This document shows, in pieces, positions 102-7,561 of a stretch of DNA of 13,259 nucleotides. The stretch comes from Calditrichaceae bacterium (lineage in GTDB: Bacteria; Calditrichota; Calditrichia; Calditrichales; Calditrichaceae), in assembly GCA_030622395.1 (NCBI GenBank), contig JAUXGF010000013.1, positions 1 through 13,259 of the forward strand, given 5' to 3'. The stretch's first letter is position 1. Each line of letters opens with the position of its first letter. Both the position numbers and the translations under genes were made by a program. The notes under the pieces are model-generated. The model was not told the origin of the DNA and ran no database searches. It saw only the letters and a list, made by a program, of their open reading frames with translations.

Positions 102-133
102 TAAACATTTCCCAAATATCGGGACTATACAAT
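102..133 (+). promoter_or_regulatory. Leader motif, copy 1 (candidate promoter of the lysis-like operon)
   Basis: TAAACATTTCC (102-112) is followed by CGGGACTATACAAT (120-133), which ends 25 nt before the ATG at 159. TATACAAT (126-133) makes a reasonable -10 element, and CCC/GGG on either side of AAATATC gives a small inverted repeat just upstream of it. The same two blocks occur upstream of the gene at 3234 and of ksgA. The recurrence at gene starts is seen directly; promoter function is inferred. Confidence 0.5.
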
Positions 134-158
134 AAAATTAAAATAAGGAGGCGTATTG

Positions 159-695
159 ATGGCAAGGTTATGCGCATTAGTTATCGGTCATAAGAAAACC
201 TCTCCCGGTGCGGTAAATAAGAAGTCAAACTTAACGGAATTTGATTTTAACGATAAGCTGGCTCTAATAATTGAAAACAAAGTGTTAAGAACGGATATTC
301 AGCGGGTTTATAGAAGAACATACAACAGCCTGCCAAATGATATTAATGAATTAGAGCCTGATTTTATTGTAAGCCTCCATTGCAATGCTTTTAATGAACA
401 AGCATCAGGGAGCGAAGTTCTCTATTATCATAAGTCAAAAAATGGTGAAAAGATGGCTAAGGTTTTATTGAGACATCTGGTTGGTCACTTACAGTTGCCT
501 GACAGGGGGATTAAGCCAAAAGCAGCGGAAGATCGAGGCGGTTATCTTTTAAAGTATACTAACGCTCCCTGCGTTATTGCGGAGCCTTTTTTTATTGATA
601 ATGACAGTGATCTTGCCAGGGCTCAGGAAAATTTCGATGATTTAGCGGCAGCCTACGCCGCGGCAATAGATGAGTTCACACAGGAAATTAGTTGA
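159..695 (+). CDS. N-acetylmuramoyl-L-alanine amidase, Amidase_3 family (endolysin-like)
   Basis: A zinc-dependent peptidoglycan amidase that should cut the bond between N-acetylmuramic acid and L-alanine. The 178-residue protein is essentially just the catalytic domain. Visible family residues are His11 (IGHKKTSPGA), Glu27 (LTEFDFND), His74 (SLHCNA) and the catalytic Glu142 (CVIAEPFFIDN). There is no signal peptide, membrane segment or obvious wall-binding domain, which is typical of phage-type endolysins that need another protein to cross the inner membrane. I chose ATG 159 rather than the in-frame TTG at 156 because AAGGAGG (145-151) sits 7 nt upstream of it. It is the first gene of a plus-strand run; the next gene starts 21 nt after its stop. 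Enzyme class is secure. A role in lysis rather than wall remodelling is inferred from the missing signal and the neighbours. Confidence 0.9.
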   Translation: MARLCALVIGHKKTSPGAVNKKSNLTEFDFNDKLALIIENKVLRTDIQRVYRRTYNSLPNDINELEPDFIVSLHCNAFNEQASGSEVLYYHKSKNGEKMAKVLLRHLVGHLQLPDRGIKPKAAEDRGGYLLKYTNAPCVIAEPFFIDNDSDLARAQENFDDLAAAYAAAIDEFTQEIS

Positions 696-716
696 TCCTA
701 AAATTTAGGAGGTTAT

Positions 717-2072
717 ATGATTCCATTCGATTTTATTATCGTACCGCTTTCAGCGGCGCTTGGGCTTTCGCTGATAGTTGAGAGAATTCTGGAATTTGCA
801 AAAAATATTTTAGAATGGTTTGTTAAAAGTCAAAATGGAAGAAACATTCCTGAACATTCCGAATCTGATAGGATAATTAGCGATTTGGAAGATAAATATA
901 AAAGAGATGAATTGTCCCTGAAGGCTGAAGAAAGGGCTGAAAAATCAATTAATGAGCGGATTAAAATCAAGGCTAAACTCGACAGTGAATCAGATCCGGC
1001 AAAACGCAAAGAATTGAAGCAAAAATTGGCTGAGCTGGAGAAAGACGGAGAATATGACGAGAGCTTTTCCAATTCCGTTATTCTTGTGGAACCCGCAACA
1101 GATGCGGATGATGGTAAAACTCTTAAAGCCTTTATTCTTCAGTTATTAGGATTTGCCGCAGGAATTATACTCGCCCATTTTTCCGGAATCCAACTCTTTA
1201 ATAGTTTTTTAAGCTCCATTGGCAGCGCTTCAACAATTGCACCCGGTATTGACTATTTGTTCACCGGACTTCTTATTGGAGGCGGAAGCGCGCCAATGCA
1301 TATTTTGATTCGATTCATTACTCAACGTAAAACAATCATAACGGACAATACCGTTTCCACGGGAGCAGATGAAACATCAACTGAAATTGAAAAACCGCGC
1401 GTTCCCGCGATTATTTCCACATCTACCGGTAACAATAATCCGGCTTGGATTGATATACCTTACAATGGCGGCGTAGATCGTGCAGAATTAGAATGGGCTC
1501 ATAAAAGGAAGAAAAATCCTGATCTTATTGTTTACCATCATACCGCCATGAGCAGCCGGAGTAAATTTGAAGACGTTGTGCGGGTGATTAAAAACCGGGC
1601 GGATTCTAAAGGCAATCATTGGCTTACCGGTTACAATTGCGTTGTGCCGTTTGACGGTTCAATCCATCCCTTTTGCCGCTGGGACCGTTACGGTAATCAT
1701 GCCGCAGGTTATAATAGAAATTCTTTAGGGATTGCTTTTAACGGCAATTTTGAAACAGACTCCAAAGTTCCGTATTCTAACCCGGATGGCAGATACGGAG
1801 ATGCGCGTCCTTCGGAAGTTCAGCTTAAAGCTGCAGCGCGCGTAGTAACGCTTTGGACTTTCCTCTATCCCATCGAAGTAGATTTTGAAAAGTCGATTAT
1901 TCCGCATAACAAAATATCAAGTAAAACATGCCCGGGTTCGGAATTTCCTTATGATGAGTTTAAGAAATGGGTGGAATTTTATCGAACGCGTTGGGATAAA
2001 TCGGCAGCCGTTAAAGAACGCATCGAGGAATTTAAATTAAAACCCTATTTATACGTCGATAAGGAGGCATAA
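717..2072 (+). CDS. Three-TM membrane protein fused to a C-terminal Amidase_2/PGRP-type N-acetylmuramoyl-L-alanine amidase
   Basis: A two-part protein of 451 residues. The N-terminal part has a membrane segment at about 6-26, a charged, probably helical stretch at about 50-112, and two more membrane segments at about 139-157 and 180-198, ending in GGGSAPMH (188-195). The C-terminal part (about 268-425) aligns by eye with T7 lysozyme: zinc ligands His274, His397 and Cys405, catalytic Tyr306 and Lys403, and a GNHAAGYNRNSLGIAF segment (326-341) matching the T7 GSHAKGYNHNSIGV region. The catalytic set is complete. If the N-terminus is cytoplasmic, three crossings put the amidase in the periplasm, tethered to the inner membrane. 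AGGAGG (707-712) precedes the ATG. The membrane part is paralogous to the next gene product. The amidase fold is unrelated to that of the preceding gene, so the operon carries two independent amidases. I do not recognise the fusion as a named family. Confidence 0.88.
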   Translation: MIPFDFIIVPLSAALGLSLIVERILEFAKNILEWFVKSQNGRNIPEHSESDRIISDLEDKYKRDELSLKAEERAEKSINERIKIKAKLDSESDPAKRKELKQKLAELEKDGEYDESFSNSVILVEPATDADDGKTLKAFILQLLGFAAGIILAHFSGIQLFNSFLSSIGSASTIAPGIDYLFTGLLIGGGSAPMHILIRFITQRKTIITDNTVSTGADETSTEIEKPRVPAIISTSTGNNNPAWIDIPYNGGVDRAELEWAHKRKKNPDLIVYHHTAMSSRSKFEDVVRVIKNRADSKGNHWLTGYNCVVPFDGSIHPFCRWDRYGNHAAGYNRNSLGIAFNGNFETDSKVPYSNPDGRYGDARPSEVQLKAAARVVTLWTFLYPIEVDFEKSIIPHNKISSKTCPGSEFPYDEFKKWVEFYRTRWDKSAAVKERIEEFKLKPYLYVDKEA

Positions 2073-2074
2073 TA

Positions 2075-2644
2075 ATGGAAGCTATTTTAAAAGTATCAGT
2101 TATGTTCGCTTTAGCGCTTGCCGTTTCCTTTTTGATCGAAAGGTTTTTGGAAATATTAAAAGCCGTTTATGATTTATTAGACAGCCGCCTTAGCTGGCAT
2201 ACTTACTGGACGCGCCGGACTGTAAAAATGAGAGATCGTTTGGAAAAAAGGCTGGAAGTATTTGAATATGTAAATCCCAAAAAAATTGCTTCTTTGTTGG
2301 ATAGGTTTAAAAAAATGTTTTTAAACGGGCAGGGAGGATATTCCGGAACAGTTCCGCTTCTTTCCGGTGATTTAGTGCGGGCGTTTTCAATAAAAGTATA
2401 TGCAAAAATTATCGGCGTCTTGCTTGGAATAGGATTTGCGTTTTGGATGAATATAGATTTAATATCTATCTGGCAGAAAGCGTCAGGCGGAACTTTATGG
2501 TGGAAAATCAATATTGACTCAGAAAGCGTACGCTTTGTTCTTTCCGGTGTGATTTTGGGATTGGGCTCGGCTCCGGTGCACAAAATTATAACAACAATCG
2601 AAAAGAAGAGACAGCAAAAATTAGAGAAAGGAATGCAGCCATGA
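2075..2644 (+). CDS. Three-TM membrane protein, paralogue of the upstream fusion's N-terminal domain; holin-like candidate
   Basis: 189 residues with membrane segments at about 6-23, 108-124 and 152-168. It matches the preceding protein in the same order: IERFLEILK (21-29) against VERILEFAK at identical positions 21-29, then SGVILGLGSAPVHKII (157-172) against TGLLIGGGSAPMHILI. The middle linker is shorter and different, with basic stretches at 47-80. It has no enzymatic domain and ends in a charged tail. AAGGAGG (2061-2067), inside the end of the upstream gene, sits 7 nt before the ATG, and only two bases separate the genes, so the two are probably translated together. A small multi-TM protein beside a signal-less amidase suggests a pore or holin-like role, or a membrane partner for the fused amidase. 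That is inference; I recognise no named holin family. Confidence 0.75.
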   Translation: MEAILKVSVMFALALAVSFLIERFLEILKAVYDLLDSRLSWHTYWTRRTVKMRDRLEKRLEVFEYVNPKKIASLLDRFKKMFLNGQGGYSGTVPLLSGDLVRAFSIKVYAKIIGVLLGIGFAFWMNIDLISIWQKASGGTLWWKINIDSESVRFVLSGVILGLGSAPVHKIITTIEKKRQQKLEKGMQP

Positions 2645-3060
2645 TTGATATTGATCTCATTATTGCGTTTGTAATTATCGGTATTGTGCTTGCGGTATTT
2701 TTATTATCTAAAATAAATTTATTACCTAAAAAGAGTCTGCCGTTTATTATAGCCGGTCTCGCCGGTGCATTTGGTATTATGCTGTTCAGGAAAAGCCGTA
2801 TGAAAGGGCTTAGAAAAGAATTAGAGGAACGCGAAAAAAAACTGCTAGAAAAAGAAGAAAAACTTAAAAAATTAAAAGATAATTACAGCGCATCCGAAAA
2901 ACATTTACAGCAAGCAAATGCAGAGTTGGAAAAACAAAGAGCCGCTTACCAAAAAACAATACTGCAAATCAAAGCGGAAAATGAAGAAGAAAAAGAACGA
3001 ATCGACCGCCTTTCCGGTGAAGATTTACATAATGAATTTCTGGAAGCCTTTGGGGATTAG
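2641..3060 (+). CDS. Two-TM coiled-coil protein of unknown function
   Basis: 139 residues: two membrane segments (about 5-22 and 33-49), a basic junction (RKSRMKGLRK), then a long Lys/Glu-rich coiled coil (about 55-122) and a short acidic C-terminus. Its ATG overlaps the upstream TGA as ATGA (2641-2644), and AAAGGA (2627-2632) lies 8 nt before it, so it is translationally coupled to the three-TM paralogue. A membrane-anchored coiled coil in a lysis-like cassette recalls inner-membrane spanins. However, the basic flank after TM2 favours a cytoplasmic coiled coil under the positive-inside rule, which would argue against that role. A structural partner of the upstream membrane proteins is an alternative. 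Confidence 0.7.
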   Translation: MIDIDLIIAFVIIGIVLAVFLLSKINLLPKKSLPFIIAGLAGAFGIMLFRKSRMKGLRKELEEREKKLLEKEEKLKKLKDNYSASEKHLQQANAELEKQRAAYQKTILQIKAENEEEKERIDRLSGEDLHNEFLEAFGD

Positions 3061-3100
3061 ATAGTCTTATATACTATTTCTAAGTCAGGGTTCGCTTAGC

Positions 3101-3120
3101 CGCTGATTAACGCCGATTAA
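3101..3120. repeat. Two tandem 10-mers in the 3061-3233 spacer
   Basis: CGCTGATTAA (3101-3110) is followed directly by CGCCGATTAA (3111-3120), with one difference. The rest of the 173-bp spacer holds a weak ATAGT/ACTAT pairing at 3061-3077, just after the stop codon and without a T-run, and the leader motif of the next gene. No ORF is supported here. Confidence 0.4.
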
Positions 3121-3173
3121 ATACTGCAACACCTTGAACTTCGTAAACAGCGCAGCAAATGATTTATGAATAT

Positions 3174-3216
3174 TAAACATTTCCATCCCGACTAATCGCG
3201 ATCGTGACTATACAAT
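3174..3216 (+). promoter_or_regulatory. Leader motif, copy 2 (candidate promoter of the secreted coiled-coil gene)
   Basis: TAAACATTTCC (3174-3184) and CGTGACTATACAAT (3203-3216) bracket a degenerate palindrome (TCCCGACTAATCGCGA). The motif ends 17 nt before the ATG at 3234, with AAGGAG in between. The block order matches the copy upstream of gene 159, but the gap between blocks is longer here. It suggests that the last gene of the module has its own start of transcription, co-regulated with the first. Confidence 0.5.
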
Positions 3217-3233
3217 AAATTAAGGAGAACGCT

Positions 3234-3767
3234 ATGCGAATTCGTATAAATTTATACTTACCCGCAATAATTATTTTATGTTTGTTTTATGCAAGCGTAA
3301 CCGCCTTAGCGCAGGATTCCATTTCCTGCAAGGTCGTAAAAAAATATAGTGATGGCAGCTATCTTGTGCAAATAGGCGATATAACTTTCCTTGCCATTAC
3401 CGAAGAAATACAAAAAAATGCGCTTAAGAAAAAACGCGATCTATTAGACGCCCAAAAAGAAATTATTTTAAAGGATTCATTACTCGCTAAATATGAACAG
3501 AATTTAGCCTGGTACGAAGCAACGAATAATCACATGAAAAAATATATTTTAGAATTGGAAGATACATATAAAGGTTATAAAAATTTATACCGGGATTATA
3601 AAAAACTAAAAGAACCCTGGGTTTCCCTTGAAGGCGGAATAGGCGCAACGGGCGATACAAAACCGGCTATTTTAGCAGGCATTCAAATACGCCAAATTCA
3701 TGTTTGGGGTTTCTTGCAGGAAAAAAATTCCGGGGCGTTAATAGGCGCGAACTTTCGTCTTTTTTAA
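3234..3767 (+). CDS. Secreted coiled-coil protein with a strand-like, Phe-terminated tail
   Basis: 177 residues. A signal peptide is clear: basic start (MRIRIN), hydrophobic core, and a likely cut after ALA at residue 26. A small strand-rich stretch follows (about 31-55, including GSYLVQIGDITFLAIT), then a charged helical or coiled-coil region (about 57-126). The tail at about 129-177 alternates hydrophobic and glycine residues and ends in GANFRLF. A terminal Phe after amphipathic strands is common in outer-membrane-inserted proteins, so the tail may associate with the outer membrane; this is tentative. There is no lipobox Cys at the cleavage site. AAGGAG (3222-3227) is 6 nt before the ATG. 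It follows the module genes on the same strand and shares their leader motif. A partner spanning the periplasm is possible. I do not recognise the family. Confidence 0.75.
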   Translation: MRIRINLYLPAIIILCLFYASVTALAQDSISCKVVKKYSDGSYLVQIGDITFLAITEEIQKNALKKKRDLLDAQKEIILKDSLLAKYEQNLAWYEATNNHMKKYILELEDTYKGYKNLYRDYKKLKEPWVSLEGGIGATGDTKPAILAGIQIRQIHVWGFLQEKNSGALIGANFRLF

Positions 3768-6133: not shown

Positions 6134-6291
6134 TATATAGTGTCTGAACGAAAACTAACCAAAACTGTCATTTCGAAGCGGAGCGTCCCGAGAATCGGAA
6201 TTTTCCTTGAAAAATGGGGCGTTTAAAGATTTCTTCCCGATTAATCGGGATCGAACTGACAAAAAGGGACTTTTCGTTCAGACACTATATA
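6134..6291. mobile_element. MITE-like inverted-repeat element, copy A
   Basis: The element proper is 6140-6285 (146 bp) with perfect terminal inverted repeats GTGTCTGAACGAAAA (6140-6154; complement at 6271-6285). It is flanked by TATATA on both sides (6134-6139, 6286-6291). Inside is a second inverted pair (TGTCATTTCGA near 6167 and TCGAACTGACA near 6250), so the whole can fold into a long hairpin. The core includes TTGAAAAATGGGGCG and the perfect palindrome TCCCGATTAATCGGGA (6235-6250). The core is shared in the same orientation with the copy at 7394-7555. There is no coding capacity, so it would have to be moved by a transposase elsewhere. It sits in the tatD-ksgA gap, directly between the leader motif and the ksgA start. 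Confidence 0.65.
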
Positions 6292-7387: not shown

Positions 7388-7561
7388 TACTTAATGCCTG
7401 AATGAAAAAACACAAAAACCGTCATTTTCCCACGGGGACGCCTTGCGGCGCGAGCGGAGCGAGAAATCTTTTGCCTTGAAAAATGGGGCGTTTTAAGATT
7501 TCTTCCCGATTTATCGGGATCAAAATGACAAGAAAAAGTGTTTTCGTTCAGGCACTACTTA
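7388..7561. mobile_element. MITE-like inverted-repeat element, copy B
   Basis: The element proper is 7394-7555 (162 bp). The left end is ATGCCTGAATGAAAA; the right end, read inward on the opposite strand, is GTGCCTGAACGAAAAC. It is flanked by the non-palindromic direct repeat TACTTA (7388-7393 and 7556-7561), part of a longer identity ACTACTTAA (7386-7394 and 7554-7562). The core CCTTGAAAAATGGGGCG (7474-7490) and the TCCCGATTTATCGGGA near-palindrome (7505-7520) match copy A in order and orientation. The right flanking repeat overlaps the TAA stop codon of metG, so the element landed exactly at the 3' end of that gene. The hairpin could act as a 3' end for metG transcripts. Confidence 0.7.

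Follow-up and report, generated by a model that had tools for sequence, protein, structure and literature searches.

What purpose is served by five adjacent plus-strand genes, encoding two wall amidases, a small membrane protein and two coiled-coil proteins, on the chromosome of a Calditrichaceae bacterium? The genes, called A1 to A5 below, lie at 159-3767 of the window, which is an entire contig (G000:C289, 13,259 bp) of the source genome G000 (3.05 Mb in 522 contigs, completeness 76.6%). An earlier note took them for a single compact operon, a lysis-like module that would serve a prophage, a gene-transfer agent, a contractile particle or a host release programme, and proposed recurrence of the gene order in related genomes as a test. 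We find that A2-A3-A4-A5 is a conserved module across many phyla, and that A1 appears to be a local addition ahead of it. We propose, at a little below an even chance, that A2-A5 is a host-owned cassette with a new architecture that opens the envelope, for lysis or release, and is similar in kind to the type 10 secretion systems (T10SS). The features of the locus are as follows.

159..695, plus strand: A1, signal-less Amidase_3 of the phage-endolysin type, ATG at 159 (the lister of open reading frames, ORFs, starts at TTG 156); apparently a local addition outside the conserved module
717..2072, plus strand: A2, membrane domain with three transmembrane segments (TMs), linker and Amidase_2 domain (T7-lysozyme/PGRP type); amidase predicted to be cytoplasmic
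717..1331, plus strand: A2 membrane domain and linker, residues 1-205; VERxLE in TM1, GGGSxPxH in TM3
1512..1937, plus strand: A2 Amidase_2 domain, residues 266-407; catalytic residues retained
2075..2644, plus strand: A3, stand-alone paralogue of the A2 membrane domain; weakly holin-like; C-terminus predicted to be cytoplasmic
2641..3060, plus strand: A4, two-TM coiled-coil inner-membrane protein, i-spanin-like candidate; 4-nt overlap with A3
3234..3767, plus strand: A5, signal-peptide-like start, coiled coil and C-terminal beta-like stretch ending in F; candidate outer-membrane partner
3615..3764, plus strand: A5 beta-like C-terminal stretch, residues 128-177; about four strands (by eye); G137, G149 and G167 invariant

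The module is defined by its gene order. We obtained 24 loci by scanning 84,980 species genomes with an alignment of A2; the scan relies on two short peptide patterns and is a sample, not a census. A3 lies directly behind A2 in 24/24 loci. Profiles of A2-A5 built from these same 24 loci place A4 and then A5 after A3 in 20 of the 23 readable loci, L042 being unreadable for A4/A5 as it ends 162 nt after A3. Among the 20, the A4 of L049 is recognised by architecture only, and the A5 of L050, truncated where its contig ends, gives a weak match (E-value = 2e-3). A4 and A5 never occur singly in the 23 readable loci, so that the pair is retained or lost jointly. In 18/18 cassettes measured, the gaps from the previous stop are -8 to 27 nt for A3, -8 to 12 nt for A4 and -4 to 395 nt for A5; these are minimal estimates, the script taking the start nearest the previous stop. 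The record titles cover KSB1, Aminicenantes, Acidobacteriota, Gemmatimonadetes, Nitrospiraceae, Deferribacteres, CSSED10-310, Desulfatibia, Bacteroidota/Bacteroidia and Gammaproteobacteria, including a named Thalassolituus strain; we take all phyla of this sample to be Gram-negative. The flanks of the loci are unrelated, with neighbouring genes common to close relatives only. Full-length A2 (over 80% of its length) is absent from 50,697 phage records and 72,556 plasmid records. The partial matches occur in 374 of the phage records, the best 20 of them covering residues 224-445, the enzyme, and in one plasmid record (residues 260-414). A3 has no match in the phage records at E-value≤5, and pattern scans of viral contigs confirmed relatives of neither A2 nor A3. 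By these searches for A2 and A3, and by the flank tallies given below, the cassette does not qualify as one encoded in a phage or prophage.

The presence of the module is patchy. A2 occurs in 11 of the 40 genomes of a phylum sample. In the T. alkanivorans family 16 of the 44 genomes match A2, of which 10 are real; the other six matches cover only query residues 2-41, which belong to an extension at the 5' end of the ORF. In two genomes of the same class, G025 and G026, all four of A2-A5 are present. In a tree of 32 A2 rows, the window sequence groups with KSB1-type sequences (97/92), and seven rows of its own family form a separate 100/100 clade that excludes it. The tree carries warnings for a long branch, L037, and for the unusual composition of four rows. 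This grouping with KSB1-type sequences rather than with its own family would fit a horizontal gain. Two observations concern these same groups. The loci of the window's own family (L027, L028, L030, L032, L033, L034 and L036) carry a different partner gene before A2-A3, of 195-212 amino acids (cluster c3), and in L038 and L039, two loci grouping with the window, a meaB gene follows the cassette downstream of A5.

The gene assignments of the earlier note stand up well. All five ORFs are present as described, each with a purine-rich ribosome site (by eye). A1 is an Amidase_3 by Pfam (E-value = 1.6e-28, 100.4 bits against a cut-off of 27) and A2 an Amidase_2 at residues 266-407 (E-value = 4.1e-17, 63.2 bits against a cut-off of 26). 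A3 is a paralogue of the A2 membrane domain (profile-profile probability 98.3%, E-value = 1.4e-14 over 163 columns). The two hydrophobic segments of the coiled-coil A4 and the signal-peptide-like start of the coiled-coil A5 are likewise seen by eye.

A2 has the catalytic residues of a T7-lysozyme-type amidase. In an alignment of 93 rows (the window A2 and 92 chosen relatives), residues H275, C308, C320, H397 and C405 are kept in 93/93, Y306 in 92/93 and K403 in 87/93; H275, H397 and C405 are presumably the zinc ligands, named after those of T7 lysozyme. Among solved structures the PDB profile matches include 6srt (E-value = 1.6e-12) and 1aro (E-value = 3.2e-6), and the top matches are an N-acetylmuramoyl-L-alanine amidase, with a CPG motif aligned to that of A2, PGRP and T7 lysozyme. 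The third zinc ligand of AmpD is an aspartate, whereas A2 has C405 at this place in every row. The first cysteine of the C308/C320 pair is lost in the distant variants L033 and L035; that the pair might act as a redox switch is a guess.

The membrane domain common to A2 and A3 is marked by VERxLE in TM1 and G-G-S-x-P-x-H in TM3 (GLGSxPxH in A3). The mean number of lysine and arginine residues per 15 residues is 3.1 (A2) and 5.1 (A3) after the last TM, 0.45-0.94 and 1.2-1.5 beside the TM2-TM3 loop, and 0.03 and 0.02 at the N-terminus, the last figures resting on two residues only. These charge counts favour an N-out/C-in topology for both proteins. By eye, A3 opens with a signal-peptide-like stretch in all eight relatives from the window's family, one of which is truncated at a contig end. 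This stretch may be cleaved (three TMs, N-out) or kept (four TMs, N-in), and in either case the C-terminus would be inside. Because of the charge counts and these A3 N-termini, the A2 amidase most likely lies on the cytoplasmic side, tethered to the membrane. Pfam gives no match to A3 at E-value≤1, and against solved structures the A3 family gives nothing better than E-value = 2.1. Residues 100-132 of A3 show a weak similarity to NCBIfam NF052278, 'AFWIR motif membrane protein' (E-value = 4.3e-4, 20.5 bits, cut-off 60).

A4 combines two hydrophobic segments with a coiled coil. Two windows of mean hydropathy of at least 1.4 occur in 18/18 A4 rows, the script always returning the two best windows; the lysine and arginine counts over these rows are 0-2 before TM1, 2-5 in the loop and 4-7 after TM2. 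A5 follows A4 at a distance of 173 nt. By eye, its signal-peptide-like start leads into a coiled coil, and its C-terminus is a beta-like stretch. Its last residue is aromatic in 45/47 rows (F in 40, Y in 4, W in 1). As a C-terminal aromatic residue is the rule for outer-membrane beta proteins, A5 is a candidate outer-membrane protein. With about four strands per chain, it would need to oligomerise to form a barrel. The only Pfam match of the window A5 at E-value≤1 is BBS7_hp, with none to YadA_anchor; a Pfam scan of the 47 A5 rows matched 79 families. Comparison of the A5 family with solved structures gave weak, unrelated and mostly helical matches, the best at E-value = 0.049.

A1 stands outside the module. 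It matches the PHROG 435 endolysin (E-value = 7.8e-42) and 265 of the 50,697 phage records, 45.1% being the top identity among the matches listed, and in the phylum sample it occurs only in its own genome (1/40). No ORF clusters with A1 at the 19 of the 24 loci that have sequence upstream of A2 (the contigs of L038, L039, L048, L054 and L055 start at, within 173 nt of, or inside A2), and A1 was accordingly rejected as a core part of the module. The recurring order that the earlier note set as a test thus holds for A2-A5 without A1. Its single compact operon needs a correction: A5 stands apart from A4 in the source genome, with a promoter-like element of its own, also found before A1:

123..136, plus strand: promoter-like repeat element GACTATACAATAAA before A1
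3206..3219, plus strand: promoter-like repeat element GACTATACAATAAA before A5

A longer form of the repeat, often cccgannn-tcgg-GACTATACAATAAA, occupies 105-136 and 3190-3219 of the window. With 0-1 mismatch, GACTATACAATAAA has 63 copies in the source genome against 4 for the reversed control. Among 30 sites read, an ORF of at least 50 amino acids begins within 50 nt at 16, those of A1 and A5 included, and within 160 nt at three further sites; 11 have no ORF. By eye the genes behind it are mixed and housekeeping-like (a dehydrogenase, selB-like, dus-like, a transporter), and for this reason we regard GACTATACAATAAA as a common promoter or repeat family of the source genome and reject it as the mark of a lysis regulon.

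The T10SS, described in PMC10847048, is an established type of holin, endolysin and spanin gene cluster outside phages, through which protein is released by lysis. As far as that account goes, the A2-A5 set resembles Serratia chiWXYZ and the Yersinia entomophaga lysis cassette in being a chromosomal holin/endolysin/spanin-like set outside a phage, and differs in having an amidase, A2, where Serratia has an endopeptidase (PMC10847048). It differs further in the fusion of the enzyme to a membrane protein, the two paralogous membrane subunits (A2 and A3), the two-TM A4, the beta-ended, non-lipoprotein A5, and the absence of any linked cargo seen. Of the T10SS features, the wall hydrolase and the chromosomal setting are present, the holin match (A3) is weak and the spanin match (A4) comes with coiled-coil noise. 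We do not claim T10SS membership, because A5 lacks the lipoprotein feature of an o-spanin and the holin identity is unproven.

An i-spanin has one TM, and the two hydrophobic segments of A4 depart from this. A4 and A5 share with the two-component spanins of phages (Rz/Rz1) an arrangement in which an inner-membrane coiled-coil protein comes first and a candidate exported outer-membrane protein second, both present or both absent; the further differences are that A5 is without a lipobox and has a beta-like C-terminus. Rz is described as N-in/C-out and Rz1 as an outer-membrane lipoprotein (PMC6139136). A natural holin-endolysin fusion is described in Clostridium sporogenes (PMC9527704), where, as in A2, a holin-like membrane part is joined to a wall hydrolase; its holin is of the TpeE family, its host is Gram-positive, and the portion of that paper dealing with it mentions no counterparts of A3-A5. 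T7 lysozyme and PGRP-type Amidase_2 enzymes share the catalytic domain of A2, which differs from them by the membrane domain in front and by the C308/C320 pair. YadA-type trimeric autotransporter anchors have a coiled coil, about four C-terminal strands and a terminal aromatic residue. A5 would resemble them in this layout, in contrast to its missing YadA_anchor match and the absence of a large passenger. We found no published description of the A2-A5 module in a search limited to PubMed Central papers, which is no proof of its absence from print.

The proposal of a host-owned lysis or release cassette is made because of this parts list, the Gram-negative sample and the failure to find the module in phages; lysis itself we infer from the parts list. 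The A2 zinc amidase, fused to its three-TM domain, would be kept on the cytoplasmic side, away from the wall, with A3 as its partner membrane subunit. A trigger would open or flip the A2/A3 assembly and so give the amidase access to the wall. A4 in the inner membrane and A5, beta-anchored in the outer membrane, may form a bridging coiled-coil pair that completes the opening of the outer membrane, as i- and o-spanins do. In the source genome, the soluble phage-type endolysin A1 would have been added in front.

Several observations weigh against this proposal. The 'holin-like' label of the earlier note survives in weakened form for A3, where 9 of 44 rows match the PHROG holin family 1299 (best E-value = 2.6e-5) and a relation to holins is suggested weakly; none of the 93 A2 rows matches that family at E-value≤0.01. 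A4 matches the spanin family PHROG 739 at 2e-6 alongside many unrelated coiled-coil families; this may be coiled-coil noise, and A4 as an Rz homologue is not upheld. By crude patterns, a cleavage site is seen in just 27 of 47 A5 rows and a lipobox-like motif, as expected of o-spanin lipoproteins, in two. A4 and A5 are both absent from three of the 23 readable loci (L040, with 928 nt beyond A3, L056 and L057), and neither was detected next to A2-A3 in those same-family genomes whose sequence continues downstream. A non-enzymatic form of A2 also exists: the variant in L037 (188-1207), next to an A3 gene, has lost the amidase HH and CPG motifs and is enzyme-dead, possibly a receptor. No cargo or regulator gene is conserved beside the cassette across distant loci, A1 and A5 share their upstream element with apparent housekeeping genes, unlike a tightly held lethal programme, and there is no direct sign that the cassette is lethal.

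The main rival, which we consider rather unlikely but take seriously, is a non-lytic trans-envelope complex acting in wall turnover, vesicle budding or envelope integrity. Placed like AmpD and facing the cytoplasm, its amidase would trim muropeptides after their import or lipid-linked precursors, and A4/A5 would be a structural tether. The predicted cytoplasmic placement is as apt for a recycling enzyme as for an endolysin kept in check, and the promoter-like element shared with apparent housekeeping genes and the chromosomal setting without conserved cargo point the same way. The patchy presence (10/44 genomes of one family, 11/40 of the phylum sample) is unexpected for core recycling, however, and the closest structures are the CPG-motif amidase, PGRP and T7 lysozyme; AmpD has an aspartate as its third ligand. 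The same cytoplasmic location, together with the L037 variant lacking the catalytic motifs, would also suit a regulator of wall synthesis, in which the amidase fold at the membrane would sense muropeptides or precursors and pass on a signal; CwlM is described as a cytoplasmic amidase homologue regulating wall synthesis (PMC4946905). We judge this improbable, as the catalytic residues are kept in 87-93 of 93 rows and A4 and A5 would be left unexplained.

The patchy, apparently horizontal spread of a stand-alone, envelope-active set could instead reflect an anti-phage suicide system, in which infection triggers the opening of A2/A3 and early lysis. This is hardly probable either: a PADLOC scan of A1-A5 returned no convincing family (none for A1 or A3, E-values of 0.011 for A2 and 0.094 for A5, and 15 matches for A4, the best at 3e-5, that look like coiled-coil noise), which leaves a defence system unsupported. 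Nor do the best 25 Pfam families of the flanks look like a defence island. As the window is the whole contig, the inspection 20-30 kb to its left that the earlier note proposed was carried over to relatives. The flank scan comprised 59 proteins, namely 58 of 80 listed flanking ORFs (up to two per side) and the partner gene L028:6793-7377; some of these ORFs, in L041, L047 and L050, coincide in part with A4/A5 and are possibly spurious. The best 25 of 58 Pfam families include metabolic and signalling ones, with no phage structural family among them, and the best 25 of 27 PHROG families include no named structural family, most having no named function. These tallies speak against the prophage or gene-transfer agent of the earlier note, and a degraded prophage, tailocin or gene-transfer-agent lysis cassette is very improbable. 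The phage-type endolysin A1 would agree with such an origin, as would the sheath gene present somewhere in 6 of 20 A2-positive genomes picked among the loci (above the cut-off in 5; five of the genomes repeat the phylum sample), but the same gene order recurs over many phyla and neither A2 over 80% of its length nor A3 turned up in phage records or viral contigs. The contractile particle fares no better as a general partner and was rejected: no sheath gene is seen in the incomplete source genome, and the sheath family occurs in 0/11 A2-positive against 4/29 A2-negative genomes of the phylum sample, so that with 6/20 in the wider set no consistent link appears.

Beyond A5 the window carries ordinary-looking genes: an MgtE-like transporter, ksgA, a TatD-like nuclease, metG, a hydrolase, fabH and lipA (by eye, the hydrolase also backed by a Pfam search). 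An 88-nt intergenic repeat is present at 6201-6287 and 7470-7557 (identity 87.5%). At the contig edge, 7-84, lies an imperfect inverted repeat (76.5% over 81 columns), a possible cause of the assembly break.

A host-owned envelope-opening cassette would widen the known kind of lysis cassette by a conserved four-gene module of different build, found in mostly uncultured phyla and in Thalassolituus. It is a bolder and doubtful step to see in it a lysis machine not borrowed from phages, a separate class that would have spread horizontally through many Gram-negative phyla, in which one polypeptide unites amidase and pore, a paralogue serves as pore partner and a spanin pair without lipid, anchored by a beta-barrel, opens the outer membrane. 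For holin and spanin studies, the cassette is of use as a natural case of an endolysin fused to a membrane protein and of what may be a lipid-free spanin pair. The module would also point to a route by which large or folded products, vesicles or public goods leave such cells.

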